In this document: piece by piece, positions 19,976 to 60,243 of the stretch | How positions within the stretch are numbered: the first letter of the stretch is position 1 | Layout of the letters: the number at the start of each line of letters is the position of its first letter | From: Candidozyma auris | Taxonomy: Eukaryota > Ascomycota > Pichiomycetes > Serinales > Metschnikowiaceae | Direction of reading: 5' to 3' | Length of the DNA: 64,000 bases | NCBI RefSeq assembly: GCF_003013715.1 | Contig: NC_072813.1 | Location: 2,170,001 to 2,234,000, forward strand | Program-made: the position numbers and the translations under genes | The notes under the pieces: model-generated | Database searches by the model: none | What the model was told of the DNA's origin: nothing | Seen by the model: the letters and a program-made list of their open reading frames with translations, nothing else

Positions 19976-20981
19976 GCGATGTGGAGTGGGAGTGTTCTGG
20001 AGAGGGTCCCTGGGGTATAGCCCCTGAGGTCCGGCCGGGTGTAGTGCTCTATAGAATAAGGGCCGTGCGGCTAATAAAGGTGTATGCAATAAAGTGTAGC
20101 AGTAATTGAGTTGCAATTGGTGTGGTTGGTGATGACGTAGTATTGCAGATGTTCTTATTCTGCCGGTAGAGTAATTCTTGCTGAAAAGGTGATATCATAT
20201 ATGTGGGCGAGGTACTTCAGGTGACACTCTTCGAAATACAAAAAGAAAAGGTTAAGGCGAGTTAATTTTTCAACACTATCCGTGACTTACATGAATCATG
20301 TTGGCAATAAAAGTATCCGTCTATTTCGAACGATGTTTAAGTGGGCTTGAGAGGGGTCCATCTTCAATTTCCGAATTTCAGATGCCTGATAAGGGTCTAT
20401 TTTTAAATTTCCGAACTTCAATTCAACTGCAAAAACCCACCAAAATTGTGTGGAGGAAGTTTCAGTTTAAAAAAAAAGGGCTTTCATTGAAACCTGGATG
20501 AATTGTTCAATCCTTGTTACGCTGCTGCCAATCGTCAGTGCACCTTCCCAAATGGCTGCAAAATATACCTATCGAGGATTCAATGTGCTGAACAATCTAA
20601 AGCACAGACTCAAGAAAGCATAAACAAAGCTGATGGTGTCAATGCTCGAAAATCTTCTACTATCAACGCATTTGAAACATTTTTATCTATACATATGCTG
20701 AAGACAGTACGGGCTTCTTGCCCTAGATATATCATACACACGAGCAGTAGAAGGAGTTGACAGAAACTACCTAAAACTGTCATGATAAGTCGCCAGTCTC
20801 AAACACCTAACAGGTCTAGATGCTTTCATCATCTTACAGTGTTCTAATCGTCTTCTTTTAATTTTTCGCCGGTGGCTCTATTTGGGACTCCTGGATACAG
20901 CGTAGGATCATAAACAGAGTGTACCCCAGCATTAACGCACTAAGAACACCCACATAAAAACACCAACACATCACACTTGCT
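19976..20981. other. NTF2-AIM21 intergenic region
   Basis: About 1 kb. Short ORFs at 20298-20501 and 20503-20760 have no recognisable similarity. The region contains one TTYGCAGCCA element on the minus strand (20553-20562), about 420 bp before AIM21. Confidence 0.5.
20553..20562 (-). promoter_or_regulatory. TTYGCAGCCA element upstream of AIM21
   Basis: TGGCTGCAAA on the plus strand, within AATGGCTGCAAAAT, 420 bp before the AIM21 ATG. Confidence 0.5.
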
Positions 20982-23576
20982 ATGCTGGACACACCTGTGC
21001 CTGTGATACCACGGAGACCCGAGCCAGGTCTGAGGAAGTCAGGTGCTCCTGCTGACTCCGATCAGGCGCCAATTGCACAGGAGACTGAACAACCCTCTGC
21101 TGATACCGCTTCTCTGGCTTCGACTCCCGTGATTCCACCGAGGCCACTGAAGAAGTCAGAATCTGGAAAAGGGAATGGTAACGGAAGCGAAGAGAGCCAA
21201 GAGGCTGCTGACTTCGAACAGCCAAAACCTTCGCCTGCACCGGTGGTGCCTAGCCGGCCAAAAAGCCTGGGCTCCAGCGAAACAACTCCCCCCGTGCCCA
21301 GTAGGCCAAAGAGCCATGGCGAAGAAATCCCACAGATTCCAAGTCGGCCCAAGAAGAGCAAGGAGGTGCAATCCCGTGCTAATTTAGTTGAGGAGCCTCA
21401 CAATGCTGAGGATGCAGAGGAGGTTGTTGACACTGAGGCTGAGGTTGTGGAAGAACCGGTTTCAATTAAGAAGGAAGAGCATGATGCAGATGAAATGCTT
21501 GAGTTGGCTCAGGAAAAGGCAATTGATGAGGATGCGACACCTCGCAAAGATGAGAAGGAGGATATAAATGCTTCTCAACAATCCGAGAAATTCGATGTGG
21601 TGCCCTCTCATCCTGAGGAATCTGGGGAGGAGGAACCCAATACTCAGAACGATCCTGCTGATGCGGCAAATCAAGAACCTCAGGAAGAAGTAACGACACG
21701 ATCCACCGACGGTGGAGCCGAGGAATCTAAGGAAGTAACTTCCTCTGACATCATCACCAAAGAACCTTCTCCGGATGACTTAGCTGAGGTTGTGGGCAAC
21801 AAAATCAAGGAGCTGCGAGAGATCTCTGGGGTAGACATCAAGAATGCAGCTGCTAGCCCTACTGAGACGGTGGAGGTGGAAACAACATCTCCAGCGGATG
21901 AAGTAGAAGAGATTGATGTCGGTACTTTGAAGAATGAGCATGGGGAAGGCGCTCCTAGAGACTCAAAAATAGCAGAGGAAAATTTGACGACTAGAAGCGA
22001 GCCTTCTGAGATCGAAAGCAAAAGTGAGGCAGAAGTTCACAAATCTAAACCAGTCGATTCAGAAGCAACCTCGAAGAAACATGATCAAGAGGAAGATGTT
22101 CAATTACCATCAAAAGAAAAAACCCCTGAGGTAGAATTCGCCGAAGATCTTACCGATAAACAGTCAACCAGTGAGATTACAGGTGCTGAAGAGAATACTA
22201 CAAGTAAGGAACAAGCTGAGGAGGTAGCTCCCAAGGAACAAGAAGACAATATCCACCACAAGGATAAATCTCCAATAATGCCTGTGATACCACTGCGCCC
22301 TGGCAAACCCAAGACTGTTGAGTCCGGCTCAGATACGCAGACGGAGACCGGCGCCACTCCGAGCATCCCGGCCAGGCCACCCAGACCGTCTAGTAAAGAC
22401 AAGCCCAAAGCTCCTCCTCCAAAGCCAAAGAAACTCTCGTCCAAGATCGCTGCTTTTCAGCAAATGTTTAACCAGCCAGCCACAGAGGCGCCCCAACCAC
22501 AGGAGAGAAGTGTTCCTGAGCCCCGAGGCAAGTTGTCCTCTGACAAAACAAGCTTTGCTGCCAATTTGCAGAACATGATGGGGCCAGGCATCGCTTTGCC
22601 CGGTATGGCCAATCCAGAGTTGTTGAAAAAACTAGCGCCGGCTAGCCCTGAGAAGGAAGAGTCTCAAAGCAAGCCTGCTCCTGGTTTGAAGGGTGCCCCT
22701 AGAAGAGCAAAGGGCCCAAGAGGAAAGAGGCTTCCTAAATCCGTTACAGATGCTAAGATAGAGGAATCTTCCGACTTGAAAACAGCATTCTACGAAGTTT
22801 GGGAGATTGATTTCAATAAATCTACGGTTGCTGGCGATTCAGTTAGTGACCCTATCGAGGCTAAAGATATCGACGACAGCAAGCCATCGGCAGCAGATGT
22901 GGTTGATGGCGCTTCTGATGATATTGATGAAGTGAGAAAGAAGGATGTGATAAGCTTTGCAATACCTGTTGCCGACAAGAGTGCTGAAGGGGGTGAGGAG
23001 GACGATGATGAAGTGGAATCTCAACCTATTGCAGAGAACCCTGAAGTTCCTGACACGCAGCCTGATTCAAGTAAACCTGAAGCTTCTCACACATTGCCTA
23101 GTGCAAAGGAATCAAAGGAAGATTTGGGTATTGAGACGAGACCTAGATTAGAAGAGTCGCAACAACCAGTCGACCCTGAGGAGGAGTTAAAAAAGATCGA
23201 GCAAATCAACAAGGCATATGAGAAGCCAACTGAACCCTCATTGGACAGAGACAAACCAAGCGATCTTCAAAGCGACGTTGAACCTGACTACGAAATCGTG
23301 GGCAAGGCACCCCATACCGAAACGCCTAAGGTCGCTGGCAATTCAGACACTGATGAGCTAGACGACAGCGGATTTGAAGAGGCCCGAGAGGCGTTCTCCA
23401 GCCCAAAGCGATTAGACGATGTGTTGCAAGCGCTGGCTACTGTCGATACAGAGGAAGATCCGACCGCTGAAGTGGAAGAGCAGCTTCGTGAGTTGTCGGA
23501 GATTCTTCCCAGTAAAAAGGTAAGGGCTGATGATGACCAGGATCCAGTTCTTGTTGATAAGGAGACCGCCATCTAG
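20982..23576 (+). CDS. AIM21: Aim21-like actin-patch protein, SH3-ligand rich
   Basis: An 864-aa, highly charged and largely disordered protein. Aim21 in Saccharomyces cerevisiae sits at cortical actin patches and with Tda2 controls barbed-end assembly during endocytosis. Visible support is repeated SH3-binding motifs of the form P-V-I-P-x-R-P (residues about 5-13, 49-56, 85-92, 100-107, 115-122, 430-437, 452-460). A conserved block also reads KAPPPKPKKLSSKIAAF near residue 480, and KGPRGKRLP follows near 590. Long Glu/Ser/Lys-rich stretches separate these. S. cerevisiae Aim21 is shorter (about 680 aa). It converges with CWC21, the 3' ends being 55 bp apart. Confidence 0.82.
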   Translation: MLDTPVPVIPRRPEPGLRKSGAPADSDQAPIAQETEQPSADTASLASTPVIPPRPLKKSESGKGNGNGSEESQEAADFEQPKPSPAPVVPSRPKSLGSSETTPPVPSRPKSHGEEIPQIPSRPKKSKEVQSRANLVEEPHNAEDAEEVVDTEAEVVEEPVSIKKEEHDADEMLELAQEKAIDEDATPRKDEKEDINASQQSEKFDVVPSHPEESGEEEPNTQNDPADAANQEPQEEVTTRSTDGGAEESKEVTSSDIITKEPSPDDLAEVVGNKIKELREISGVDIKNAAASPTETVEVETTSPADEVEEIDVGTLKNEHGEGAPRDSKIAEENLTTRSEPSEIESKSEAEVHKSKPVDSEATSKKHDQEEDVQLPSKEKTPEVEFAEDLTDKQSTSEITGAEENTTSKEQAEEVAPKEQEDNIHHKDKSPIMPVIPLRPGKPKTVESGSDTQTETGATPSIPARPPRPSSKDKPKAPPPKPKKLSSKIAAFQQMFNQPATEAPQPQERSVPEPRGKLSSDKTSFAANLQNMMGPGIALPGMANPELLKKLAPASPEKEESQSKPAPGLKGAPRRAKGPRGKRLPKSVTDAKIEESSDLKTAFYEVWEIDFNKSTVAGDSVSDPIEAKDIDDSKPSAADVVDGASDDIDEVRKKDVISFAIPVADKSAEGGEEDDDEVESQPIAENPEVPDTQPDSSKPEASHTLPSAKESKEDLGIETRPRLEESQQPVDPEEELKKIEQINKAYEKPTEPSLDRDKPSDLQSDVEPDYEIVGKAPHTETPKVAGNSDTDELDDSGFEEAREAFSSPKRLDDVLQALATVDTEEDPTAEVEEQLRELSEILPSKKVRADDDQDPVLVDKETAI

Positions 23577-24594: not shown

Positions 24595-24604
24595 TGGCTG
24601 CAAA
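24595..24604 (-). promoter_or_regulatory. TTYGCAGCCA element, CWC21/acid phosphatase
   Basis: TGGCTGCAAA on plus, within TTGGCTGCAAAAT, 217 bp before the phosphatase ATG and 430 bp from the CWC21 ATG. Confidence 0.5.
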
Positions 24605-28321: not shown

Positions 28322-30117
28322 GCAAAAATAATCTGAAGACCAGCAAAGGAGAATGAAGAATCCGTGAAAAAGAAGAAGTAGTTTCAGGGAGTGGAAAGTA
28401 ACGTTTCTCCCATGCCTGTGGAGTCGGTTCCGGGCCGATGTGCAAGCGCAGTGAAAAAAGATGGCTGCGGGTGCCGCACCTTGAGAAGCCGTTCGCAACC
28501 CCCCGGATAAGGATACTCAGAGATCAGAGATAAAGAACAAGTTGGATGATCAATTGTGCGATTTAAGCTGAGCATGTGAAATTCTCTTTCTTGGTCGTTG
28601 GCAGAACCCACATTTAAAGCTGAGAGAAGCTGGGGCGAAAACACTTGTTGGGATGAGACAGAGCTCAGAGCTTGGAGATCTGGAAGGTTGCGATTTCAAG
28701 GGTGCGAAGCTTTGTCAGCGGCGCACATGAACAATGTTGGAGATGATTTTGCAAAAGGAGAGGCCTAAATTGAAGACTGACACTTGCTTAGGAAGAGCCT
28801 AAAGAGAGCACAATTACTTTCACCTTGAATTGGGGTACTTATTCTTAGCGAAGAATGATTCGCACCCAGAATACTCTTCCTGGAACTTCCGCAGCTTCTA
28901 AGAACTTAGTCAGCTCGCACTCTGCCAAGGAAGCCGGACACTGATTGGTTGACTCTACTGAATCAGCAATTTTCCAACTCCTGAGAAAACGACCGCGATC
29001 GACTCTTGAGTGCTAACGTAGTGTGGACCTCACTTGTGGCTTGGCTTTCAATGGGGAGTGGCCGGAAATGCTGGGGCAATTCCGTGAGGGACACGCTCGG
29101 GGCTCCTCGGCGCACCTCGGACCTCCTCGGCGATGTCACCAGAGTGATGACTTTTGGCATATTTTTTTGGGTCACGAGCAGTTCTGGAAATCAGAATGTG
29201 GAGGCGCCAGTGTGGAGTTCGTGTGGGGGTCCACCGCCTAGGTTGCCAGAGCATTTCAGCGAGGTTATGAATTATGTGATGATGTATTTATTTATATGGG
29301 AGGTGCGTTGCAATTGCTTGTGTGCCCTTGCCGCCTTGAGAATTAGAGGCAGCTCAGCACTTTACTAGCCACAATCGCGACAGGATGAAGCCGGAATCGA
29401 GAAATTTCTGGTGTTTCATGAACCCTCGTGGACTGCTTTGCACTTAAAGTGTCATCAGTGTCCTTATCATTGGTCTGGGAAATCAAATCTCATAGAATAA
29501 GTGTCTAAATCTTGCGCAATGGGTTTCGTGAAGTTAGGTAGGTAGAAGGTGTTGGATTTTGCGTTCACCCTGGAACCTCGCTTCTCTTCTACGCAATGTC
29601 CTAGTCGGAACGTTTGATTCCGAGAAGCCGTTATCAAGATTGGTGTGGTTGTGTGGGTTACTCATCTCGATATGCACCCTGATTATTAAGTGCTGCGAGC
29701 CTGGCTGAAATGGCTGCAAAATACCCATACTCACTCTAAGCTTCTTTGGAAGACCGAGCTCTATATCGAAAGTTGCAGAAGTGGTAAAATAAATATTAAA
29801 AGGCATGTATGTTGCTGACATTCTCGAGATATTTTCAGATTTCTGACACTTACCCTAGCGCCTTTGCACGGCTGAGACCCAGCTTGGTGGAACGACATCA
29901 CCACTGGCAAACGTGAACTTCCCGCGAATATTCCGCCTTGAATCACAAAGTCCTAGCAATGATCACGTAAGGATCTGATTAGCGTGGGCTCTACCACATT
30001 GTCGCCTCATCAGCAGTACAGCAACTAAAGCAGCATCGTCTGAGGTCTGCAGGAATAAAGCAAATAAATACGCCCTGGCTTCGCTTGTACCAGATCTGTT
30101 CTCTACAATTGCCAAAG
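28322..30117. other. Divergent region DMT transporter / DUF4336 gene
   Basis: 1.8 kb between two start codons. Small ORFs around 29.0-29.4 kb on both strands lack ATG starts or natural composition. It contains one TTYGCAGCCA element (29711-29720) and a weaker ATGGCTGCGG at 28461. No RNA gene seen. Confidence 0.5.
29711..29720 (-). promoter_or_regulatory. TTYGCAGCCA element upstream of DUF4336 gene
   Basis: TGGCTGCAAA on plus within AATGGCTGCAAAAT, about 400 bp before the ATG at 30118. It is the same 14-mer as upstream of AIM21. Confidence 0.5.
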
Positions 30118-30930
30118 ATGGGGTATCCCGATCCATTGAAGGTGTTCTCGAGAAAACTCACCGACAACGTTGTTGTCAGCTCAAGCGGGTTCAAGCGGTT
30201 CGACAGAATCAACTTTGGTGCTAGAATGGCCCTTTTCAACTACAACGACACCATTGTCGTGTGGTCGGCGTTGCCCTACAGTGAAGGTGTCAAGGAAGCT
30301 CTTAAGATGTCGTCTGGAGCCAAGGAGCCCAACGTAAAGTACGTGGTGATCCCGGACCGAGAGCACACGATGGCTGCAAAGTCGTTCAAGGAGCAATTCC
30401 CGCAGTTGAAGATCATCGCCATGGAAGGAGTGGATTTGGGCAAATCCGTTCCAATCGACTATGTTGTGACGCTGAAGTACAAGAACCAGTTGATCGATGC
30501 CCAAAAGCTAAAGGAGATTGGTATCAGCGATCCCGTGATCTTGGACAACTTTGAGTTTGTGTACCTCCCATCCCACGCCAACCTGGAGCTTGTGATGTAT
30601 GACAAGCAGCTGAGGGCGTTGTTCCAGGCAGACTTGTTGTTCAACTTGAAACAAGGCGACGGTAACGAGCAGTTCTCAAAGCACTGTGGCCACGAAGGTG
30701 GCAACCCTTTCTCTGGGTTTTCGTACTTGGCTCGCTTCATGCACCCAGACAGCAAATTCGGCCGGTTCTTCATGAACAAAGCGGTCAATAGCGGTGCAGC
30801 AGCCGAGGGTCTTCAGAAGATCTACGGGTGGGATTTCGAAAAGGTGGTGATGTGTCACGGGCTGATCATCGAGTCTGGTGGCAGAGAGGTGTTCAGAAAA
30901 GTGTTTGCCTCTGCGATAGATAAGAAGTAA
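30118..30930 (+). CDS. DUF4336 family protein (metallo-hydrolase-like)
   Basis: A 270-aa fungal protein of the DUF4336 type, whose fold is related to metallo-beta-lactamases but lacks the full classical HxHxDH motif. Recognisable features are the RINFGARMALFNYNDTIVVWS start, the segment VKYVVIPDREHTMAAKSFKEQFPQ, YLPSHANLELVMYDKQLRALFQADLLFNL and VVMCHGLIIESGGREVFRKV near the C terminus. No signal peptide is evident. The ATG at 30118 follows an AAG context and gives MGYPDPLKVFSRKLTDNVVV; the longer frame starts with TTG. The function is unknown. Confidence 0.8.
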   Translation: MGYPDPLKVFSRKLTDNVVVSSSGFKRFDRINFGARMALFNYNDTIVVWSALPYSEGVKEALKMSSGAKEPNVKYVVIPDREHTMAAKSFKEQFPQLKIIAMEGVDLGKSVPIDYVVTLKYKNQLIDAQKLKEIGISDPVILDNFEFVYLPSHANLELVMYDKQLRALFQADLLFNLKQGDGNEQFSKHCGHEGGNPFSGFSYLARFMHPDSKFGRFFMNKAVNSGAAAEGLQKIYGWDFEKVVMCHGLIIESGGREVFRKVFASAIDKK

Positions 30931-31190: not shown

Positions 31191-31200
31191 TTCGCAGCCA
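31191..31200 (+). promoter_or_regulatory. TTYGCAGCCA element, thioesterase distal copy
   Basis: TTCGCAGCCA within AATTTCGCAGCCATT, 240 bp before the ATG at 31440. Confidence 0.55.
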
Positions 31201-31385: not shown

Positions 31386-31395
31386 TTCGCAGCCA
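31386..31395 (+). promoter_or_regulatory. TTYGCAGCCA element, thioesterase proximal copy
   Basis: A second identical 15-mer, only 45 bp before the ATG, so it is probably in or next to the transcription start zone. Confidence 0.55.
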
Positions 31396-31439
31396 TTGTG
31401 GGGTCGCGATATTTCTTTATCTCCTAGTGCTCATCACCA

Positions 31440-34764: not shown

Positions 34765-34774
34765 TTCGCAGCCA
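34765..34774 (+). promoter_or_regulatory. TTYGCAGCCA element, glucoamylase/ASNSD1-like
   Basis: TTCGCAGCCA within ATTTCGCAGCCAAA, 355 bp before the glucoamylase ATG and 620 bp from the other gene's ATG. Confidence 0.5.
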
Positions 34775-34978: not shown

Positions 34979-34988
34979 TGGTTGCGAA
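34979..34988 (-). promoter_or_regulatory. Variant element TGGTTGCGAA, glucoamylase promoter
   Basis: TTGGTTGCGAAAATATGCCC, one base off the common element, 140 bp before the ATG. A very similar block ending ATATACCC precedes the phospholipase B gene. Confidence 0.35.
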
Positions 34989-38161: not shown

Positions 38162-38471
38162 GCAAGGTGAAAAAAAAAAAAAGATAAAATATCAAATCAA
38201 TTTGGCCTTTTGTTTTCTGATCGTCTCATAATTTTCGGTTGTACTTAGTAATACCCTTAGTTCCTTTAATGATTGTTCTGTAGATGTCCCGAATAGTAAG
38301 AAAGGGAGATCATATTCATGATCTATGGGATTATTCATCGAATGAAAATTCCGTTTCTCTGAATGGCAATTTATGTGTTTACATGAACCCAGAGTGCTAC
38401 ACTGGCGAATTTCGCAGCCATTCCTGTCCTCAACTGATTACTTCGCATCATTTACAATTTCTTCATCAACA
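38162..38471. other. Glucoamylase 3' end and CDC26 promoter
   Basis: 310 bp, with an A-run just after the glucoamylase stop and a promoter element 52 bp before CDC26. In-frame sequence upstream of the CDC26 ATG is open but judged untranslated. Confidence 0.55.
38411..38420 (+). promoter_or_regulatory. TTYGCAGCCA element upstream of CDC26
   Basis: TTCGCAGCCA within AATTTCGCAGCCATT, the same 15-mer found twice before the thioesterase gene; 52 bp before the CDC26 ATG. Confidence 0.55.
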
Positions 38472-39516: not shown

Positions 39517-41694
39517 TTACCATGGCTCTAAAGTATTCACGCCCTTTTGTTTCCAAGAAGTCTTGGACGGATCGTGAAAGACTTTTTTGACAATTCCTTT
39601 GTTTATAAGCATATTTATTGTGCTTTTGTGGATATCAAGGCCATCAAGAACAAGTTCATCAAGCATTAGGACTTCTGACTTGAATGGTTGCGAACTCGAG
39701 TAATTGAGAAGGTTCATGATTCCAATCCCGCTAATCATGTGGCAGAATGAGATGTCTAGCCTCTTGAGCTTAAAGTTGTCGTAACCGCAAACATCTGCGA
39801 GATCCTTATGTAAGAACTTCATTGATACGTTGTCTAAATCCATCTCATTTAGGTAAAGCGTATGGAGCTGTGGCACGATGCGGAAGATTTGGGAGAACTC
39901 TAGCACATCACGGCCAACTGCAAATTGATCTCGCCGCAAGTACACATTTTGGCATTTGCCAATATTGAGTGTAGAAAGTTGTTGACCAGTGTTCGCAATA
40001 CGGAGCAATTTAAGTAAACCTTTGGATGATAAGAAGGACCCGTAGATATCGAGATATTCTAATGAAAAGAGACACGGTAAGGACTCAGCATCGACATCAC
40101 TTAAGTTTGAGTGTCTCTGATCACCGATTTCCCTGAAGGTAAGTTGTCTTAGCTGAAAGCCAGGACTAAAGAGGAGCAAAACTTTCACAAAATCTTTAAT
40201 CAGAAGTTCTGCATTATCTTCCAAGTATAAGCTCCGAAGTGACGGAATTTTGGCCAAGAACTCCCCAAAATGATGTACTCGGTTCTTGAAGTTGAAAGCA
40301 ACCAAAGTGAGTCTTGTCAAAGATGGAAATTCAAATTCAAGAATCTTAGGCTGAGCAACAAGTCTTTTCTCAATATACTTCGAATGGCTGATGTAGGAAA
40401 AGGCGTTAAGATTACCATATGAAATGTTGTCTTCCAGAGCTCTGAGGTATTGCTGATATTTCTCTGACTCTGATGGAGTGAGTGCATCAAAAGATGATTC
40501 TACGAGATCATCAGCTACCACGATATCTAGATCCGTGAGTCGGGGATAAAGATAAAGAAGCAATTGCGGATGCAAAATGGGCCGGTTGATAAGAAAGCGC
40601 AATTTCTCGATGCTTTTAAGGGTATCCAAATCCCATTTGCATTTCTCAAGCTTGTTCAAAAGAAGTTGTAGGCTGAAATCTCTGTTGACAATCTCTAAAC
40701 GTTTCAATTTGAGTGTTCTGTCTGTCACCAAGCTCTCCAAGATTCTTCCTAAATGCATAGTATTGAAAGTCGACCACACACGAACAGAATGGATGGACTT
40801 GTCGTACAGATACTGGGCGACTCTTTTCATAAGTCTCAAGCCTCCAGAGTATTCGGAAGCAGTAGCTCGGTGTCTCAAAGAGAACTTATCGTTATACAAC
40901 GAGGGAATCGAAATCAAAATCCAGTACCACTCTTTCGAGACCAAATGGCACCTGAGGAGGCTTCTTATCGGCAAGTAGGAAAATACATGCTCAATGACAT
41001 CAACGGGTAAAAGGCGCATTGGGTCAAGGTCACTCTTGCGTTTCTCCATAGTCAGTTGCTCCAGAGGAGCAGTAGACGAACGAGGAAGAGGCAACATCTC
41101 GTCTAGTCTTCGTTGAAGACCAGAGGCGGAGAAACTCTTTGCCCTTTTCACGCTTTGATCAGGTTCAGGCGAGTCCTTCAGGCCGCTTTGTCGTTTCAAC
41201 TTGAGCTTACGATTCAACTCTTTGTATTTAGCCTTGAGGTTTGCCAATAGCGACTCAGAAACAGGCACAGAGTGCTTCTCGCATGCCTTTTCAATAGTAT
41301 ATAGTCCTCTTTGCAAAATCTTATAGGCATCAACCTCCTTCGACTCTTTCATGTACACTTTGGCTGCTCGTAGATAACCTTTTGGGTCCAATGGGTCCAA
41401 GGTCATAGCTCTCTGAGTATCTTTCAAAGCCCTTGGCAAATTGCCCAACTTCTCAAAAGTAGCTGCCCGTTGATCAAGCACCAGTAGTAGCTTTGGATGA
41501 CAAAGCACCCCCAAAAGTGGTTTAGGGCTCAAATCATAGTAACGTCTCACTTTGGTGAGCTCAGCAGGAGCCTTGTCTGAAAGCTCTTTTATGATTTCAT
41601 TGTAGATTGTGAGGCACAGAGTGTAGTCTTTCTGTTTGAAGTACAGCACTGCTAGTTCGATCCGGTCGCTGAGCACAATCTCGCCCACTTCCAT
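39517..41694 (-). CDS. DIA2: F-box protein Dia2 (TPR - F-box - LRR)
   Basis: The substrate receptor of SCF-Dia2, which disassembles the CMG helicase at replication termination and safeguards replication. The order TPR (about residues 8-130, with RIELAVLYFKQKDYTLCLTIYNE-type helices), NLS-like basic patch (about 161-186), F-box (226-265, MRLLPVDVIEHVFSYLPIRSLLRCH) and C-terminal leucine-rich repeats is characteristic of Dia2 and S. pombe Pof3. Length 725 aa compares with 732 in S. cerevisiae. The ATG at 41694 gives MEVGEIVLSDRIELAV. It is transcribed in tandem with BUD21 but has its own upstream region with a promoter element at 41920. Confidence 0.93.
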   Translation of the reverse strand: MEVGEIVLSDRIELAVLYFKQKDYTLCLTIYNEIIKELSDKAPAELTKVRRYYDLSPKPLLGVLCHPKLLLVLDQRAATFEKLGNLPRALKDTQRAMTLDPLDPKGYLRAAKVYMKESKEVDAYKILQRGLYTIEKACEKHSVPVSESLLANLKAKYKELNRKLKLKRQSGLKDSPEPDQSVKRAKSFSASGLQRRLDEMLPLPRSSTAPLEQLTMEKRKSDLDPMRLLPVDVIEHVFSYLPIRSLLRCHLVSKEWYWILISIPSLYNDKFSLRHRATASEYSGGLRLMKRVAQYLYDKSIHSVRVWSTFNTMHLGRILESLVTDRTLKLKRLEIVNRDFSLQLLLNKLEKCKWDLDTLKSIEKLRFLINRPILHPQLLLYLYPRLTDLDIVVADDLVESSFDALTPSESEKYQQYLRALEDNISYGNLNAFSYISHSKYIEKRLVAQPKILEFEFPSLTRLTLVAFNFKNRVHHFGEFLAKIPSLRSLYLEDNAELLIKDFVKVLLLFSPGFQLRQLTFREIGDQRHSNLSDVDAESLPCLFSLEYLDIYGSFLSSKGLLKLLRIANTGQQLSTLNIGKCQNVYLRRDQFAVGRDVLEFSQIFRIVPQLHTLYLNEMDLDNVSMKFLHKDLADVCGYDNFKLKRLDISFCHMISGIGIMNLLNYSSSQPFKSEVLMLDELVLDGLDIHKSTINMLINKGIVKKVFHDPSKTSWKQKGVNTLEPW

Positions 41695-41919: not shown

Positions 41920-41929
41920 TTCGCAGCCA
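41920..41929 (+). promoter_or_regulatory. TTYGCAGCCA element upstream of DIA2
   Basis: TTCGCAGCCA within TTTTTCGCAGCCATT, 226 bp before the DIA2 ATG. Confidence 0.55.
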
Positions 41930-42398: not shown

Positions 42399-42408
42399 TT
42401 TGCAGCCA
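42399..42408 (+). promoter_or_regulatory. TTYGCAGCCA element upstream of ATX2
   Basis: TTTGCAGCCA followed by TAAT, 273 bp before the ATX2 ATG. Confidence 0.5.
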
Positions 42409-43543: not shown

Positions 43544-46344
43544 TCACTCACAAGGGTAGAATTCCCCCTCAGAATCCTCATCAGCGTTTCCTTTGGGCTC
43601 AACAGGGTTAATCTCTCCATCTACATCGTCACTTGCGGGCTCGTTATCGGACAGTCCTTGCTCACTGACGTCTTTCGACGGGCCGCTTGTATCAGGATCA
43701 CTCACCTCCTTGCCAAAAAGAGGTATGCTTTTCGGAATGTTCGGACTTCCCATACCAGGGCTTCGGTCAAAGTATGCTTGGTTTCCCGCTGGACCCAGGA
43801 GTGAACGCGAGTGATGACGCTGGCGCATCGACAGCAGCAACCGAGGTTTCGACAACAGGCGCCTCAAGTCTGGCGCGTTGAGAGTTTTCATTGACTCCAA
43901 CACCTCGGTGTCGTATTCGCGTTGTACCAACGCATTGGGAGTTGCCAGAGAGCCGTATGAAAATGACGATTCTCTCAGTCTAGTGAGCCCAAGGAGGTTT
44001 CCACTGCCTGACGACCGTGGCAAGTTAGCCCTCTCCCTAGTTTCCAAGCTCTTTGGTTTCTCTTGCTTCCTTCCGGGTGTCCCATACAAAGACGCTAGTT
44101 CGCCGTAGTCGGAATAGTGGACAGACTTCTCATCCTTTGGACTCGTACGAAGCTTAACTGGGCTGTGTGTAAGGGAGTCGTCGTTAAGCTGGAAGTTTCC
44201 GGAACTTACAGCCTTGCGAATCCTGCGACCATCATGGTTCGCTGCCATTGAATATCCATACGCTTCGATACCTTGCAATGTGTTATCATTATTGCCAAGT
44301 AGCCCAGATGAAGGCTCACTTGCACCACCGCGATCAAGCCTTCCATTCATGGACAGCAAAGACGTAGTGGATTTGCCTTTAAGTATCCCTTTAGCTTTCT
44401 CTCCAGAGAACATCGAGACAAACTTGTCCCTTTTCTTCTGCTTGGGGATCCGTTCACCAGTAGAATATATGCTAGCATTTGTGGTTGTGTTGTGCCTTTT
44501 GATCTGTGGGATTTGAGGGAGTTGTTTGTGATCATTCTCCAAGCGTTTGGACCGATTAAATACAGGGTAACTTATCAAGTATGAATTCATTTCCCCATTC
44601 TTCAACATGTCTGACGTAGTGCCATTCATCGCAGTACTTCCGTATGTGATTCTGTTGTTAGACGAAGCAATGACTCTTCCCCGAAGCTTGGTGATTGCTT
44701 TATCCAAGGCGAATTCAACACCACAGTGGTTGTTTATAAGACTGATCTTTGGCCAGCAAGCACGGGCACCTCTTAGCAAGAAGTCTAACAAAAACTCTGG
44801 TCCTGGATTCTCAAATACTTTCGTGAAGTCTGTGAAGTGAAGGTCAGGTAAAATAGTGACATCACCTGAGTATTGTTGTGATAAAAGGGAGATTGCTTTC
44901 ATTGCCAAGTTCTTCGAGACATCCATCTCGTGTATGACTTGCAAGTAGTGGATGATCTCACTAGTGACGAAGTCGTAGCAATTGTTCAAAATACCTCTCA
45001 CAGCCTCTCTTAAATCGTTATCTAGTGGACCAGAGAAGGAGCCCACAGAGAACCTCAAAATGGGAGACACATGCGGATTAATTTGCACTGCAATGATATG
45101 ATCAACATTGAACATCTCAGACAAGCGCAAAATGGGAAGATCGCCATCAACAGAGCCATCGACGTACTTCAGAGAGACGTCGTTGTTCCACTCGCGGATC
45201 TCACCAGTTCGTGGGTTCTTTTCGTAGATCGTGGAGGAAGGGAAAATGCCAGGAAGGGAGCATGAGGCACTCACAGCAGACCAGATAAGACAATTTGGAG
45301 CAGACAAGTAATTTAAGAGTCTCGTTTGCTCATGCATTGAGGCTGGAGATACCGTGATATTGAGAATCTTACCGGTTCTATTGTAGGCTTCTCTAAAGGT
45401 CAAGTCGCCCACGAACTCCCGCATGGTTTCTTGGAGGCCCTTGATGTCAAAAAAGGTACCAAACTTGAGCATATGGCTAACCCGTTCCAAGAATTTTTTG
45501 AAGGTGCTCTCTGTCGGGTCGGACTTTCCGAAAATGTTGAGCTTTTGCTCCGTAATCAGCGCCAACAACGCAGCCATCTCCTCGTTCGTATTGCAGCACA
45601 ACATACTGGCGAAAATGGAGCCCGAAGAAGAGCCTGAAATGATTCTTGGCATCAAATTAGCCTCAAGAAGCGCTATCAACACCCCCACATGTGAAACGCC
45701 GAAGGTTGACCCACCAGAGAGCAAAAGCGCCGTTCGGCCGATATTCTTACGTGTTTGTATGAGCATCCCCAAAGATAGCGGTCGTCCAAGTTGATCTCGG
45801 GATCGCTCACCAAGTAATCGAGCGACTGCTGGCACTCATCGATGAACTCCTCAATGAGCTTCTTAGTTCCCACATGCGACTGCCTATACAACCTGGCATC
45901 ACCCATGTTTCCAACATTCCTTGTCAATTTCGTCCGTATCAAATAGAGCAAGAGTTTATGATCCTTAGCCATCCGTGCATTTTTCAACTCTTGCATATTT
46001 TTGTAAACGTTGTCGTGATCATAGAACGGCAGCTGAGGGTCTAGCTTCCACATGTTATTGCCCAAGAGCTCATCCAACTCTGCCGAAATCGCATACCACT
46101 GCTTATACGTGACGGCCGTTTTTTGCTGCAGCTTCAACTTCTCAATAAGCTCCTTCTTGTGGTTTACCGCAGGCACTACCTTGCCCACAACGGGTAAAAG
46201 GCGTAAAGCTGAGAGCACTCTGTTGCGGTACGAGGCCATGGATTCGTAGACATCCTCAGCATCTCTTGGTCTGAGGTGTGGATTTTGGGCCAAGATAGAC
46301 TGGATGATCTCGGCGTGAGCCGAAGACGACGAAGGCTCGGTCAT
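43544..46344 (-). CDS. TGL4: Patatin-type triacylglycerol lipase (Tgl4-like), frame broken by one base
   Basis: A lipid-droplet triacylglycerol lipase of the Tgl3/4/5 family. The first frame (46344 to about 45772) encodes the conserved N-terminal region up to NLDDRYL. The second frame (about 45772 to 43544) continues without loss of conserved sequence: TRKNIGRTALLLSGGSTFG (oxyanion loop), GSSSGS (G-x-S-x-G lipase motif, Ser near residue 240 of the joined product), and YVDGSVDGDLP with the catalytic Asp. Joining requires one extra T in a CTTT run at 45771-45773, giving about 933 aa, close to S. cerevisiae Tgl4 (910). The Ser-rich C-terminal third fits the kinase-regulated Tgl4 tail. The break is either a sequence error or a recent mutation; no decay is seen elsewhere. 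Tgl5 is the alternative name. Confidence 0.85.
45770..45774 (-). other. TGL4: Apparent one-base deletion in lipase gene
   Basis: The plus strand reads CCCCAAAG. One more A would read through from DDRYL into LGMLIQTRKN in the family-conserved frame. The site is a homopolymer next to another homopolymer, a typical place for indel errors. No canonical X XXY YYZ slippery heptamer is present. Confidence 0.75.
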
Positions 46345-47276
46345 GCCTAGTTTCTGTTGAGGTTATAAAGGAAGGGACTAGTTAAATGGAAGAAGAGATT
46401 AGTTGTATAATATGGGTGCATACGGGTGCGAAATGAAATCTGGGGAAGGCCTGTGAAAAGGAACGAGACGGGCGGGCCCGAGGCGTAGATAAAGGGAGGA
46501 AAAAAAGTGTATGATAAGGTGCAGTTAAGAAAGTAAAAAAACAACAAAAAGGTTACTTTTTTTTCGTGATTCTATTGTGTTTCGCCTTTGGTTGGTCTTG
46601 AAGTTATCCGATGGCAGATTCGGGTGCAAAGTGTGTACATATTCGGCTGATGCAGGCAGAAATGGAACACAAGAAAGTGGAATGCTCTGTTCGACACAAA
46701 GAAAGGGAGACGGAGACGGAGGAGAAGAAAGTTAGAAGAAACTTCGTTTTAGATGCTTGAATGCCGAGTTCAGATATACTGTGGCTCGTGCCTGGGTGTG
46801 TAGATAGCGGTCTGTTTTACGATACTTTTACGAGACTGCCTTCTAGAAGGACTTATTGTGCGCTCCATGTGATAAACAGGTGCAAAAAGAATCTCAATCT
46901 GAGACGCTCTACTGGGTTCAGGTGACTTTGAGTCATATTCGTGATTATACTAGTACAACATAGACGGCGAGTTTCACATACAAGAAACCGTAGAGATACA
47001 GTAGAGGATGGGGATACGCTAATAAAGGTATCATCAAGGCTAGCTTGAAATGCCAACAACAACTTGGAGACCACTAATCTGCAAGTTGCTGAGTCCAAAA
47101 GATCCCTGTCAGAATTATGCAAATGAATGGGCCTGCTCAAAAATTAAGGTCAATAAGGTCTTCCAAAGTTCGTCTTTTCCAAGTCTTTTGCAGCCATTTT
47201 TTTTAGCATTTCCAGCGTTTGCAGCCATTTTTTTCAGCATTTCCAGCGTTTGCAGCCATTCGCATCCAGACTCCCA
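46345..47276. other. Lipase upstream region / PLB 3' end, with tandem repeat
   Basis: 932 bp. The half near the lipase ATG is A/T-rich with poly-A runs (46536-46570). The distal end has a 31-bp tandem repeat carrying three promoter elements. No credible ORF. Confidence 0.6.
47187..47260 (+). repeat. 31-bp tandem repeat carrying three TTYGCAGCCA elements
   Basis: Units of TTTGCAGCCATTTTTTT followed by AGCATTTCCAGCG repeat at 47187, 47218 and (partly) 47249, spaced exactly 31 bp. It ends 16 bp before the phospholipase B stop codon and lies 843 bp upstream of the lipase ATG. Confidence 0.85.
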
Positions 47277-49181
47277 TCAGAGCCACAGAAAGAGGCTCTT
47301 CAAGCCCTTCCACAAAAACCCGAGAATTCCGCCTCCCCCGCTGTTTCCCTTAGTCACAACAATCGAATTGTTGCCCCAGAGCGTCATCAGGCTGTTGGTG
47401 AGCCCGTCTATGGTGTAGTTCACAGGGCGGTAGTAGTCAGCACCTTCATACACCGACCCATCCCAGCAGTACTTGTCAAAGCACTTCTTGCACTGGTCGC
47501 TCTGCTCAATCCCCTGTCTCTCCTGGTCTCTACGTACCACCGCACACGCCACACATGCTCCCCAGTCGCTGTCGACAGTGCCATTCATCTGTGTAGCAAT
47601 ATCGTAGCCATTCTGGATGGTGGCCTTTTTCTCCAGATCTGAGTATGTCAATTGGAGCGTGGACTGGTTGGAGAAGTACTCGAACGGGCGGTTGGCCAAG
47701 TAGATGACAAGAGGAGGCGTGACCCCGTCCTTGGCAAGCGTCGACTGATTTTTGGCGTCGCAGCCAAAGAAAACCGGCCGGGCAGTCAAATTGTGCGCTG
47801 CAAACGTCTCTTCACCAGGAACATAGGGGCAAATCACCGACTGGCCCTCGTAAGTCTGCGAGCGGCGGTAGGCGTTGACTATAGAAGCGCCGTCGGGCCA
47901 CAGGGCCGGGTTGTTGTCGAAAGCTAGCACTGTGTCCACCTTTCTTCTGGAGTTCATCAACGACGACAAGGGAAGGTACTCGCCGCCAATGCCACCGTCC
48001 ATGAGGAAAAGCGACTCTGAGCTCAGCAAGTTGGAAGAGCCAGCGTGCTCAGACCCATAAAACGGGTTCGGGTTGTAGATGGCAATATCCTCCTTCTGCT
48101 TGGACATTCTCTTCAAGAGGCTGCGAACAACCCACTTAACGGGCCCAGGAAGCTGGTCGCAATTGGGACACACCAAGGTGTCGAGAAATTGGTTAAAGAG
48201 TGACGACGAGGTGCCCACCACGAAGGCCGCGTTGTCAAAGCCGCCAATGCACGTCTCGTTCGTCTTGCCATTGAACACTCTGGTGCCCAAGTACTTGGTA
48301 GGGGCAAAGGAGTTGATGGAGGTATCAAAAGAGCCCATCTCGAGGGGGTTGAACTCCACCACGGGCGAGTTCAAATCGTACACTAACGAATCGGGTCTTC
48401 TGGCCAACGCCAGCACCAAGGGGAACGGCATCGTGTGGTTCTTGAACCCCAGAGATTCCTGGAGGTCTGACCACACCACCAGATCAAAGTAATTGTCTAC
48501 GCTAGGGAAAAGCTGGTGCGCCAATGCTCTGCCCCAGACATCTGTGATTGTCGTATAGAAGCCAGCATCCTCCTTGGCCTTGATATCGTCGCCAATTCCC
48601 GTGCCGTTGGCGTTTTTCCAGTACCGCACATGCGTGATGAGCTTCAGGTAGCTGTTGGTGATAGCAGCCCACGCAAGGCCGAGAAAGTCCAGAGTGTCTA
48701 CGATACTATTGGCGTCTGTGTTGTTCCACATGGAATCCCGAAGCGTGACAACCTCGGGCCAATCTTGCACGGCCACCAGGCCCAAGAGCCAGGCACCACC
48801 AGAGAGACCGGCAATGTATGTGCTCAGTTGCAAAATTCCAGCGACAGGCAGATCCTCTGAGCGAGCGTCGATGGCTGCGAGCTCCCCAGCACCCACAAAC
48901 ATGGCTCTGTAGCCGCCGCCGGAAAACGCCGTGGCGAGGCGAACCGAGCTGTTTTCAATGTCAAAGTCCTCTTCGGGCAAATTTTTTTGCAAAAACTGGG
49001 CGAGGGCCTCGTTGGCCTTGGGCTGGCGATTTTGCACCCATTCCTGCTCGGCGTCTGAGATCAGCTCCCCCAGGCGTAGAAGGGAGCCCTCAGGGCAGGA
49101 AACCTTGACTGGAGCGTAGCCGCCTGAAGGAGAGATCGCCGCGGCCGCACACCAGAGACCAGCAAAAACCAGCCAGCGCAT
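47277..49181 (-). CDS. Secreted/cell-wall phospholipase B
   Basis: Fungal lysophospholipase/phospholipase B, which removes both acyl chains from phospholipids outside the cell and is a known virulence factor of pathogenic Candida. The 634-aa protein starts with the signal peptide MRWLVFAGLWCAAAA, followed by VSCPEGSLLR. The cPLA2-like catalytic domain has LATAFSGGGYRAM (oxyanion site, about 82-94), AGLSGGAWL with nucleophile Ser127, and SLFLMDGGIGGEYLPL with the catalytic Asp. The C-terminal Cys pattern C-x-x-C-A ... C-x-x-C-F-x-x-Y-C-W is typical of the family. A Gly/Ser stretch and short hydrophobic tail could be a weak GPI signal. The ATG at 49181 is chosen for the signal peptide; an earlier in-frame start would add an unconserved leader. 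Confidence 0.95.
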   Translation of the reverse strand: MRWLVFAGLWCAAAAISPSGGYAPVKVSCPEGSLLRLGELISDAEQEWVQNRQPKANEALAQFLQKNLPEEDFDIENSSVRLATAFSGGGYRAMFVGAGELAAIDARSEDLPVAGILQLSTYIAGLSGGAWLLGLVAVQDWPEVVTLRDSMWNNTDANSIVDTLDFLGLAWAAITNSYLKLITHVRYWKNANGTGIGDDIKAKEDAGFYTTITDVWGRALAHQLFPSVDNYFDLVVWSDLQESLGFKNHTMPFPLVLALARRPDSLVYDLNSPVVEFNPLEMGSFDTSINSFAPTKYLGTRVFNGKTNETCIGGFDNAAFVVGTSSSLFNQFLDTLVCPNCDQLPGPVKWVVRSLLKRMSKQKEDIAIYNPNPFYGSEHAGSSNLLSSESLFLMDGGIGGEYLPLSSLMNSRRKVDTVLAFDNNPALWPDGASIVNAYRRSQTYEGQSVICPYVPGEETFAAHNLTARPVFFGCDAKNQSTLAKDGVTPPLVIYLANRPFEYFSNQSTLQLTYSDLEKKATIQNGYDIATQMNGTVDSDWGACVACAVVRRDQERQGIEQSDQCKKCFDKYCWDGSVYEGADYYRPVNYTIDGLTNSLMTLWGNNSIVVTKGNSGGGGILGFLWKGLKSLFLWL

Positions 49182-49544: not shown

Positions 49545-49554
49545 TGGTTGCGAA
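49545..49554 (-). promoter_or_regulatory. Variant element TGGTTGCGAA, PLB promoter
   Basis: GGTTGCGAAATATACCC, 364 bp before the PLB ATG, closely resembling the block in the glucoamylase promoter. Confidence 0.35.
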
Positions 49555-51614
49555 ATATACCCTCTCTCACAAAATGGCCCAGGGCGAGCACGGGGCCCTG
49601 GAGCGAGCACGAGGCCCTGGGGCATGCTTAGGGGCCCAAGAGCCTGCTCGGTTGTTTCCGCACAAGGCGCTCAAGGGCGCCCTTGTTTGGCATCTGGTTG
49701 CATTTCGTAAAGCTCTTGCTTGTTTCGGCGACATTGTTCCTTTTTTGAGATGACATCGATGCGGTTCGGTTGGAGCCGAGTTGACCGTCGATTTTCAATA
49801 GCCCAGTGCCTGTCGAAATCGTGGCTTCACATGTAAGCCTGGAAGGTACGAGCTATGGAGAGACTACTATTGAGTGAAAGGAAGTTAAATCCAGTTAGAT
49901 ATGGTGTGATATGTGAAATGTCTTTCTTGAATGCTGCACGGGCCGAGATTTCTTGATGGGTGCAAAATGCGACGCCGCTGGACCAAACGCACGGCGTCTT
50001 AACAAGACGATGATTTACGATGATTTTGTACAGAGATATGTAGGTGAAGGGAATTCTCATGATGTGAATTGCAAATACCTTTGGATGTTGTGTGCTATTC
50101 AAATAAAGTCAGTAAAGAGTGCTTCGTTTTGGATCTCAACCACTTACATGAGGACTTCATTTTCGACAAAGTAATGATGCCAATATGCATGAGACACAGT
50201 GTGGGAAAACATTTCTTGACGACAAGGTTCGTTCGATAATAAATCTTGAGGGTTGTTGATTAGATGCGTAGTGTATCTCTTCTGAGAATCCAATAGACTC
50301 TGGGTTAGTGGGATGATGTGTGATGGGACGCTTCAAACTTGGAGTCATGAAGAAAGGCAGCCTCTCGAAAGAAAGTAAATCAACAAAACATATTTTGGTT
50401 CATTCTAATGTTTATTACCATCACACAATTCTAATTGCTACGGCAAGTACATGTGCAGCTTAGCTACTTCCAGTAGCATGTTTGTGGGGTTTCTGGATCA
50501 ATTTCTTTTCAATATCCAAGTAGGCCAAAACTCTTTGAAATGACTCGTGGGTATTTGAACTCACTTTTCTCTTTTCTAACATTAATAAACTTTGGCTTCT
50601 TCCCACATACTTTCTTTCACTTTGCTTCGTCTTTGCAATCCTTATTTTGGGATTAAAAAGACTATATTTTGTGAACGAACGTGGGAGTTTTCAAACGCAT
50701 CAGGTTGATTAACTTGAAGAGGGGTTTTTGAGCCATAAGTATTGAATTTGATAGATAGAACAAGAAAACGAGAACAGGTGAAACTTTCCATTTTCTCGAT
50801 CAGGCCCGAATCTAAAGAACTTCACAATAGACACAAAAGTAAGGCTACCCCAAAGATCCTATGAAAACTTCTCCTAGAAGTATTTTCAGGACAAGTAGAG
50901 GAGTAGAATAGGAACAGAGTTTCTCCTGAGTACGTGTATCGAATAATTAATGAAAGACAGGAAGAAGAATAGCCATGTCTCGTACCATGTTCTCGTTTAA
51001 GGCCATTTTTAGTAGCCTTAGAGATACGATGCACAAAACCGCTCTTTTTTTTTTTGCCTTTGAGTTTTTGGAGACACCTTCACTCATCAGACTACAATCC
51101 ATTTCAAAGAAAATAGATAATCGCTAACATGAGGGATGTTTGTGGGTCTCGGGTCTCATTTAATAGTATACCCAAATCTGCTTATGTCAATGAATTGCAT
51201 CTGTTTCTCTCAAATTCTGTTGACATGAATGAAAAGGTTCCTCAATGCTTGCCGGGAACTCCACAGAAAAGGGTTCGATTTCACGAGGAGTAACTAAGGT
51301 TTTATAGTGGCACATGATTCGGAATAATTGGGGCATGAAGTAAACAGGCTTATTTACTAAGTTTGCATTACCGATTCGTTCTAAAGATTTATCCCAAGGT
51401 GTATGTAATCTTTTCACGCCTGGTTACAATCGATATATAGCGAAAGGATAGGTGCAAGTGAACATCATTTGCCTTGAAGGCCGAAATGAAAATTTGATAA
51501 AGTGTACAGCTCAATCCATTTAATCGGACCACTTGAACCCGGATGACAGACTTCCTCCGATCTTCTGCCTTCTTAAGTAGCATGGTTTGAGAAACATCTC
51601 GAAAGCCTGTAAAA

Positions 51615-51624
51615 TGGCTGCGAA
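51615..51624 (-). promoter_or_regulatory. TTYGCAGCCA element upstream of TRZ1
   Basis: TGGCTGCGAA on plus within AAAATGGCTGCGAAAAT, 302 bp before the first TRZ1 ATG. Confidence 0.55.
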
Positions 51625-54853: not shown

Positions 54854-55465
54854 ATGCACCCAGTTCCATTACTTCCTCCATGGCTTCTAGAGTCTATAAA
54901 TGACGTGGTGCAAAAGCAGTCGATATACAGCAATCCGCTAGTAAAGAAATTATTTGTCCACTACAAGGGACAAGGCAAGGTGAACGTGAGAGCCACTCCC
55001 TTATTAAGAGTACTAGGGTTCTGCAAACCAACCAACGATGGCGGGCTTACCGGGATTCTACACGACCAAGACCACAAGATTCTAGTTACATTTGATAGAA
55101 GCTGTATTGAAGATTTCGAAGTGAAACACTTGAGAAGACTCACAAACAAAACGGTGGAGTCCATCTTCCTCGTTGAAAGAGCGAACCTCAGATTCATCAC
55201 GATCTTGGAATTGCGGGATAAATTTGGTCAATTGCCCGGTTTGAAGATCGAGCCAGGCCTCGGGATCTTGATTTTAGAGATTTTCAAAGTGCAATGGTTC
55301 ACAAAGCAGCAGATCAGCGTGGCTGCAAAGGAAGATGCTATGTTGCCGTATATCTATAATGATGAGGAGTATATCGCGATGTGTAAGGAGAATCCAGACT
55401 TGGGAGACTTGACGAAGCTGATACGGCACTTAGAGGGAGGAATCATGTCAGAGGACGAAGTTTAA
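54854..55465 (+). CDS. EST3: Telomerase regulatory subunit Est3 (TPP1-like OB fold)
   Basis: Est3 is a small OB-fold subunit needed for telomerase action in vivo and related to mammalian TPP1. The 203-aa protein aligns across its centre with S. cerevisiae Est3: ATPLLRVLGFCKPTNDGG, ILHDQDHKILVTFDRSCIEDFE, LTNKTVESIFLVERANL. A hydrophobic-acidic N terminus (PPWLLESINDVV) matches the Est3 W-L segment. The ORF is continuous, so no +1 frameshift is needed, unlike S. cerevisiae. The ATG at 54854 is used (a TTG precedes it). It follows TRZ1 by 150 bp in the same direction. Confidence 0.78.
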   Translation: MHPVPLLPPWLLESINDVVQKQSIYSNPLVKKLFVHYKGQGKVNVRATPLLRVLGFCKPTNDGGLTGILHDQDHKILVTFDRSCIEDFEVKHLRRLTNKTVESIFLVERANLRFITILELRDKFGQLPGLKIEPGLGILILEIFKVQWFTKQQISVAAKEDAMLPYIYNDEEYIAMCKENPDLGDLTKLIRHLEGGIMSEDEV

Positions 55466-56055
55466 GCGACGCCAAAGGATGACAGGTCAAAGTGACTAAG
55501 TACATCTTCGACCTGGAAGTCACCAAAGTGACTCCAAGTAGATGCTATTGTGTACACTCTATCTTATGATAGGACCAAAAGAGGGTAAATGTTTTGGATT
55601 TCAGAGTTTCTCTGTGAAGGGAAGGTGGTGCACGAGAGGATCTCGAGGTTTAAACGAATTATCGATTGAGCGGCTTCCACCCGGGTGTTAACAGCTTCGA
55701 ATTAAGTTTGCTCCTTAAGCAAGCGACTGGCTGTACTCAATGGTTGACTACAAATGCTTCATCTTGATAACTAAAGTGAAGTACAGAGAACACTAATGGA
55801 CAAGCGATACTTGATCCAAACAAAGCAATAAAAAAAAAAAAAAAAAAACACCATGATTGACATCAAAAGATTCAGACACTGCTTTGCTCGATGGAGTTTT
55901 TTAATAACGCTTCATCTTTCATTTAGCTCATGTCCCTCGCCTTTCATAGACGCATTGTTAATGGGTACTCCCCCCCACAATTCGCATTTTGCAGCCATTT
56001 CCACCACCGCTCCATTTCATCCCATCAACAACTTTCCTCCACATTTCCACCTACC
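55466..56055. other. EST3 3' end and upstream region of next gene
   Basis: 590 bp with an A-tract at about 55829-55848 and a promoter element 59 bp before the ATG at 56056. An in-frame ATG at 55930 is upstream of that element and is judged not to be the start. Confidence 0.55.
55988..55997 (+). promoter_or_regulatory. TTYGCAGCCA element upstream of 56056 gene
   Basis: TTTGCAGCCA within ATTTTGCAGCCATTT, 59 bp before the ATG. Confidence 0.55.
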
Positions 56056-58083: not shown

Positions 58084-58093
58084 TGGCTGCAAA
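58084..58093 (-). promoter_or_regulatory. TTYGCAGCCA element upstream of RML2
   Basis: TGGCTGCAAA on plus within GATGGCTGCAAAATG, 254 bp before the RML2 ATG. Confidence 0.55.
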
Positions 58094-58401: not shown

Positions 58402-58411
58402 TTCGCAGCCA
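58402..58411 (+). promoter_or_regulatory. TTYGCAGCCA element upstream of ATP5
   Basis: TTCGCAGCCA followed by TTAA, 302 bp before the ATP5 ATG. Confidence 0.55.
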
Positions 58412-58712
58412 TTAACTGACCTTCATTGACTTGTAGTTTTTCCATCAAGACACCCCCCTACGTTTATTAAAAACCAAAGAGTCCGTAACTCTCTCTCTTC
58501 AATACTCAACAGAATCAAGAAGCTTCAAAAATCAACAATTCATGGTGTCTTTTCAAGGGCTCCTTATCTAAGTGTGCCACACTCCTTATGAACCTCGCAC
58601 TACCCGGTTGTCCAATCATGCTCCATACCAGTGTCGGTGCGAAAAAACCAAAACCAACCTCTGTCTACATAGTCAAAAAAACACAGACTCCTAAACACAT
58701 CTTCCTGCAATT

Positions 58713-59333: not shown

Positions 59334-60243
59334 GTTTCTCCCGCTGCATCGCTAGACGTATTTAAATGATGACGTTAAGACAACTGTTGTAGTATTTGTA
59401 GGTCCCGCATGGAAGCGAAGCGTAGTCGACTGAAACGATACGTGGACGAAGGTCGTAGACTGGATGAGCATACATGCGAAATGCCATGGACAAATTTGTC
59501 ATAACCTCTTTAAGAGTACTGGATATTCAGAGTTGTGAAATCTACGTGGAAGCTATAGTAGCTCAGCCAAAGATTCCTGCTTAGAGACAGTTCGTTGGGG
59601 ATCGATGCAAGCTATTGTTAAAGGCTACAAAGATTATAAACATCAACTAAATCTCACAAGAAACCAAAATGTTTCAAAAACCGCATGTGCTAAATTCAAG
59701 CAAATCAAGAGATTGAGCAGTGGGCTTTTCCAGTGTACGTGTAACTCTGGATCACAGCCCCTATAGGTAACTTTTCATATGATGCGCCAGTGTATAATGG
59801 AGTTAGCGTCTTCATTGCAAAACGTCCAATTTTATATCAGCTTTGAAAATAATCTACAGCTGAAATGATGTTTACTCGATCCCTTCTGGTCGTACTTCGT
59901 CAATTAATCACAGTTGAACAACGCACAGTGACCTGAACCATCTGTCGAAGAAATGGCTGCGAAAAATGACGGTACACATTACATAGCAGTTGTAGCCAGC
60001 GGTTGTGAAAACGGTTACCATATCAAACAGCAGTTTACCAAACAGCCTCAGCCATCGAAAAAAAGGTCTTCAATTGAGCCTCAAGCAAACATCATAAAGT
60101 CTGCAATAAAACGCTCAGCTCGATTTGCCTCTTCCCGTCTTCACATATCAGCTCACCGCCTCGTCTCCTACACACAACCTGGCTACAACTTCACTTCGTC
60201 ACTTCGTCACTTCTCTCCACCTTCTTTCTCCAACAATTCGTTG
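59334..60243. other. ATP5 3' end and TED1 upstream region
   Basis: 910 bp. It contains one TTYGCAGCCA element (59954). The reading frame of TED1 happens to be open back to 59953, but that would translate the promoter element itself and no signal anchor is then at the N terminus. Confidence 0.55.
59954..59963 (-). promoter_or_regulatory. TTYGCAGCCA element upstream of TED1
   Basis: TGGCTGCGAA on plus within AAATGGCTGCGAAAAAT, 281 bp before the TED1 ATG. Confidence 0.55.

Follow-up and report, generated by a model that had tools for sequence, protein, structure and literature searches.

The window analyzed here, a 64,000-nucleotide stretch of the Candidozyma auris genome (C2:2170001-2234000 of assembly G000; seven contigs, 12,249,773 bases), carries genes that include ATP5, a mitochondrial-type ribosomal protein L2, and members of the tRNase Z, ZIP transporter, and histidine phosphatase families, and the decamer TTYGCAGCCA recurs in the gaps between them. 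An initial annotation listed 19 noncoding copies and two coding matches of this word and read it as the site of a general promoter factor. All 19 noncoding coordinates are exact matches, and both coding copies are real, one exactly at 30371 and the other, given as near 55323, at 55320, for a total of 21. CTG is read as serine in this genome, with CTG codons falling where serine is expected (for example, in the peroxiredoxin-like open reading frame [ORF] 61773-62516, as judged by eye). ATP5 shares 93% identity with a Candidozyma haemuli var. vulneris cluster, and Metschnikowia and Clavispora come next among named relatives at 75 to 77%, a placement within Candidozyma (Metschnikowiaceae).

RESULTS

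The word is far more abundant than chance predicts. Its 21 window copies compare with a mean of 0.40 and a maximum of 2 in 100 shuffles, in line with the initial estimate of fewer than one, and the whole genome holds 2,049 copies (1,015 on one strand and 1,034 on the other), a density at which the window would be expected to hold 10.7, or about half of what it has. TTTYGCAGCCATT occurs 641 times in the genome. Changing a single base (A6 to T, TTYGCTGCCA) reduces the genome count to 120, and reversed-pattern controls yield 17 and 1; because reversing the pattern adds CpG steps, the one-base change is the fairer control.

A detailed sample of 264 kb, consisting of the window and C1:1000001-1200000 (pieces L001-L020), was used to define the word and its placement. 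ORFs of 120 amino acids or more stood in for genes (177.9 kb within ORFs, 86.1 kb between them). Between ORFs the word is the top nonsimple 10-mer, behind poly-A and TA repeats, with TTCGCAGCCA present 21 times (0.22 expected) and TTTGCAGCCA 17 times (0.47 expected). The decamer as originally stated is real but too narrow. Position-by-position substitution between ORFs gave 21 C, 17 T, 2 A, and no G at position 3, and 38 G, 12 A, 9 C, and 2 T at position 7, where only 0.8 A and 0.6 C copies were expected, while every other core substitution stayed at background (0 to 2 copies against 0.2 to 1.0 expected). We refer to the word with A, C, or G at position 7 as the V form. The flanks are constrained as well, the 5' neighbor being T or A in 32 of 38 sites and the 3' neighbor W in 32 of 38, followed by T in 24 of 38. 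The window holds 14 copies of the resulting 13-bp consensus, WTTYGCAVCCAWT, where 0.09 are expected. Eight window copies have A or C at position 7 (0.58 expected), and three of these are inside ORFs. Genome-wide, TTYGCAHCCA has 1,220 copies (reversed control, 112), with A, C, and T at position 7 in 49, 31, and 20 of the first 100 copies listed; by extrapolation, the A and C forms would contribute very roughly a thousand copies, for a total near 3,000.

By density, the exact word is 6.5-fold more common between ORFs (38 copies) than within them (12 copies), and V sites are 6.8-fold more common (59 versus 18). Shuffling yielded a mean of 1.35 intergenic V sites and never more than 5 across the 264 kb. 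The depletion from coding DNA claimed earlier is a relative one and not absolute, as the 12 exact ORF copies exceed the 1.1 expected. Three of the V copies within ORFs share a single 236-amino-acid ORF without a Pfam match (L008:7628-8338), and window copies 55988 and 59954 lie less than 70 bases into ORFs that probably begin with 5' leader sequence. At 59954 the complement of the word forms the first ATG of ORF 59953, a start that automatic calling would put in the wrong place.

Where two ORFs bound a gap, the density of V sites per kb is 1.00 if the gap is divergent (26 sites), 0.62 if it is tandem (30 sites), and 0.24 if it is convergent, this last value being based on one site in 4.2 kb. 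Distances to the nearest ATG peak mildly at 150 to 450 bp (25 of 56 sites versus 17.2 expected; p = 0.02). Both orientations are used, as the initial annotation stated, with 38 sites pointing with the gene and 18 against it (p = 0.01); the split is 26 to 8 within 450 bp of the ATG and 12 to 10 beyond. Because the complement of the word, AATGGCTGC, contains ATG, the preference near genes may simply arise from leaders avoiding upstream start codons. A site lies within 800 bp of 40 of the 107 genes scored, and "general" therefore means widespread rather than universal here.

Individual window sites are collected in Table 1. Most copies were earlier said to lie upstream of ATGs. Exceptions are 38411, which is between convergent genes, and 47187, 47218, and 47249, where a 31-bp tandem repeat (47187-47260, 2.4 copies) carries three exact words 18 to 80 bp beyond the stop codon of a phospholipase gene. 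Four of the seven genes named as lacking the word were scored, namely, the F-box gene, TFA2, BUD21, and EST3, and none has a site within 800 bp. Two features of the surrounding sequence deserve mention. Within 6213-15494, a Gti1/Pac2-family (WOR1-like) gene precedes some 8 kb in which all ORFs are short and in which the sites at 7692, 8681, and 10037 are found. On the minus strand, the patatin-domain ORF 43544-45766 overlaps a DUF3336 ORF (45676-46344) in a different frame, the two looking like one split lipase gene.

Table 1. Copies of the word and of its position-7 variants in the window
Feature	Position	Strand	Context
TTTGCAGCCA site	8681..8690	+	exact match
TTTGCAGCCA site	10037..10046	+	exact match
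TTTGCAGCCA site	20553..20562	-	419 bp upstream of ORF 20982 (AIM21 in initial annotation)
TTTGCAGCCA site	24595..24604	-	60 bp upstream of ORF 24665 (histidine phosphatase family)
TTTGCAGCCA site	29711..29720	-	397 bp upstream of ORF 30118
TTTGCAGCCA copy	30371..30380	-	within ORF
TTCGCAGCCA site	31191..31200	+	239 bp upstream of ORF 31440
TTCGCAGCCA site	31386..31395	+	44 bp upstream of ORF 31440
TTCGCAGCCA site	34765..34774	+	divergent gap; 621 bp from 34143, 354 bp from 35129
TTCGCAGCCA copy	38411..38420	+	convergent gap (exception)
TTCGCAGCCA site	41920..41929	+	divergent gap; 225 bp from 41694 (DIA2 in initial annotation)
TTTGCAGCCA site	42399..42408	+	272 bp upstream of ORF 42681 (ZIP transporter)
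TTTGCAGCCA copies 1, 2, 3	47187..47196, 47218..47227, 47249..47258	+	31-bp tandem repeat
TTCGCAGCCA site	51615..51624	-	301 bp upstream of ORF 51926 (tRNase Z family)
TTTGCAGCCA copy	55320..55329	-	within ORF
TTTGCAGCCA site	55988..55997	+	58 bases into ORF (55930); start probably leader
TTTGCAGCCA site	58084..58093	-	divergent gap; 253 bp from 57830 (mitochondrial-type ribosomal L2)
TTCGCAGCCA site	58402..58411	+	same gap as 58084 site; 301 bp from 58713 (ATP5)
TTCGCAGCCA site	59954..59963	-	complement gives first ATG of ORF 59953; start probably leader
TTTGCACCCA variant	7692..7701	-	upstream of ORF with start at 7529
TTCGCACCCA variant	28859..28868	+	upstream of minus-strand ORF starting 28321
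TTCGCAACCA variant	34979..34988	-	upstream of ORF 35129
TTCGCAACCA variant	49545..49554	-	upstream of minus-strand ORF starting 49181
TTTGCACCCA variant	49957..49966	-	same gap as 49545 variant
TTTGCACCCA variant	16177..16186	+	within ORF
TTCGCAACCA variant	39685..39694	-	within ORF
TTTGCACCCA variant	49031..49040	+	within ORF

Genes with sites in the C1 part of the sample are of mixed kinds. Among the 24, 17 were scanned and 13 gave a family: Lon protease, tubulin cofactor D-like, polyol-type dehydrogenase, DUF155, G-alpha, deoxyhypusine synthase, NDUFA12, CTU2, GH3, PIF1, formin, 2-hydroxyacid dehydrogenase, and a 2Fe-2S/4Fe-4S protein of the succinate dehydrogenase type. The 57 genes without a site (46 scanned, 37 with a family) include transporters, kinases, and transcription factors. 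As to the claim of functionally unrelated targets, the families are varied, but there is a mitochondrial tilt that is suggestive at best, with 5 of 13 site genes labeled mitochondrial versus 4 of 37 without a site (p = 0.04, for labels set after the list was seen; altering any one label shifts p within 0.02 to 0.18).

Sites of familiar factors, counted between ORFs of the 264 kb, behave differently. Abf1, Reb1, Rsc3, Rpn4 (both kinds), PAC, RRPE, MCB, SCB, HAP, Ume6, YY1, Crz1, and Candida albicans CACGAC words reach at most about 1.3 times expectation, and identification with the classical factors Abf1 and Reb1 was rejected on counts of 8 versus 10.8 expected for Abf1 and 4 versus 3.9 for Reb1. 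Enriched but rarer than the present word are RTCACGTG (10 versus 3.4), ACACCCRYACA (3 versus 0.1), TGTACGG (13 versus 4.7), and TACCCCAG (10 versus 1.5). The Aft word YRCACCCR is 2.1-fold enriched (34 versus 16.2), in part because the form of the present word with C at position 7 is counted within it. No classical word tried has a comparable role in this sample. In the open-access literature searched as text and by topic, including passages of PMC2897762, PMC7559329, PMC4161868, and PMC3904162, no description of the present word was found.

A few other patterns emerged in passing. The Cbf1-like TCACGTGA occurs 14 times between ORFs (2.1 expected) and never within them, and GGTGTACGG occurs 5 times between ORFs (0.2 expected). 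Elsewhere in the genome, zinc-finger matches at C6:242419-242577 and C6:388210-388368 have identical scores and both lie in ORFs of 296 amino acids, which suggests a duplicated gene.

DISCUSSION

In the DNA surveyed here, one word leads all nonsimple intergenic words, is nearly invariant, is associated with promoters, and occurs in both orientations before mixed genes. From this pattern, WTTYGCAVCCAWT is probably bound by a general regulatory factor of this yeast lineage that is abundant and sequence specific. Copy number, the near-invariant core, enrichment in promoter-bearing gaps, use of both orientations, and mixed targets all point in this direction; presence at only 40 of 107 genes and the mitochondrial tilt temper it. 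A protein bound to WTTYGCAVCCAWT would help keep promoters free of nucleosomes and would in this way permit or raise transcription, the part that Reb1, Abf1, Rap1, and Cbf1 play elsewhere among yeasts. Promoter chromatin is set up by general regulatory factors, which are known to have been swapped between yeast lineages (PMC2897762). Several observations weigh against such a role: 67 of the 107 scored genes have no site within 800 bp, the 18 V copies within ORFs are above chance (shuffle mean, 3.1; at most 8), and sites lying within 700 bp of ATGs are not significantly more frequent than expected (42 versus 37.9; p = 0.15).

What protein might bind the word is a separate question, for which a conserved glutamine-rich AFT/FAR1-type protein encoded at C2:2309098 is a tentative candidate, put forward from likeness of fold and motif. 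Its AFT domain scores 27.5 bits by profile (cutoff, 21.6; relatives, 25.5 to 39.9), and it has both the AFT/WRKY-GCM1 fold and the conserved Cys/His set. Its Clavispora relative was modeled with an Aft2-like WRKY-GCM1 zinc domain followed by a helix-turn-helix-like three-helix domain, and two DNA-reading domains of this type would suit a rigid 13-bp site. When position 7 is C, the word (TTTGCACCCA) includes TGCACCC, which is quoted as the core for yeast Aft1. A glutamine-rich FAR1-domain protein of C. albicans matches C2:2309098 with 73% identity over 51% of the query. Its architecture suggests that it may be Rbf1, no database row having given that name; the C. auris protein is perhaps the Rbf1 counterpart. 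The RPG box, presumably ACACCCATACATTT, shares CACCCAT with the same C form. In the accessible part of PMC3904162, Rbf1 is a glutamine-rich, RPG-box-binding protein whose mutants have reduced respiration, and no Rbf1 motif is given there. The case for this candidate is weakened by a profile match to Aft2 at only E 0.26, by helix-turn-helix matches that may reflect a common arrangement, and by a likeness to the word that is confined to the rarer C form, the plain Aft word being only modestly enriched.

There is about an even chance that the binder belongs to another family, such as C2H2 zinc fingers, Myb proteins, or the true Aft protein (C1:1360574). C2H2 fingers give 78 matches in the genome and Myb domains 20, and the YY1 site, AANATGGCNGC, shares ATGGCTGC with the complement AATGGCTGC; however, no YY1-like four-finger set was found among 30 of the 78 finger matches plus one stretch, and YY1 words have only 0 and 1 intergenic copies. 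The binder could also be a regulated activator of a broad regulon of respiratory and growth genes rather than a constitutive general factor. We regard this as unlikely, even though the mitochondrial tilt keeps such a regulon in play, site genes include NDUFA12, the succinate dehydrogenase iron-sulfur subunit, ATP5, mitochondrial-type L2, and PIF1-type, Lon-type, and DUF155 genes, and the respiratory defect of rbf1 mutants fits it (PMC3904162, accessible part). The labels behind the tilt were assigned post hoc, many site genes have no such role (formin, G-alpha, CTU2, GH3, and tubulin cofactor D-like), and some 3,000 sites are many for a single regulon.

Functions outside transcription are less probable still. 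An element of replication or chromosome architecture with a mere preference for intergenic DNA is quite improbable: such elements also lie in promoter gaps, and our tests do not tell the two roles apart, but convergent gaps are poorer in sites than promoter-bearing ones (one site in 4.2 kb), and about 3,000 copies exceed the few hundred origins that are usual in a yeast. A dispersed repeat or compositional artifact is hardly credible. The 31-bp tandem repeat is local, the 38 aligned sites of the 264 kb are alike only within the 13-bp consensus, and flanks with no shared sequence mean that no repeat family surrounds the sites; the excess also disappears after a one-base change and is not reproduced by shuffles.

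If an AFT/FAR1-type protein does bind the word, a new protein family would have entered the role of general factor. A wider proposal, slightly more doubtful than the candidate itself, is that a protein of transposase-like ancestry combining WRKY-GCM1 and helix-turn-helix domains (the Rbf1 type), and not a Myb or basic helix-loop-helix protein, serves as the leading general promoter factor in Candidozyma and perhaps across the CTG-Ser yeasts. Such a protein would take the place of Abf1 and Reb1 of Saccharomyces and would read a rigid 13-bp site at two to three thousand places. The strength of the word makes the identity of this lineage's general factor directly testable.

Among known systems, the budding-yeast sites of Reb1, Abf1, Rap1, Cbf1, and Tbf1 offer the closest parallel, with rigid sites of about 10 to 13 bp, thousands of copies, promoters of unrelated genes, and both orientations, although none of their words equals the present sequence. 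The Aft1/Aft2 iron-response site is present as TGCACCC in the C form, whereas the commonest form here has G at that place, both flanks are constrained, and the target genes, as far as scanned, are not iron genes. YY1 resembles the complement, but its preferred ATGGCGGC is not enriched here. CACGAC was described as a C. albicans-specific general factor site from sequence and chromatin (PMC2897762, accessible part). It is alike as a clade-specific candidate site but is a different word, with 19 copies here versus 21.4 expected.

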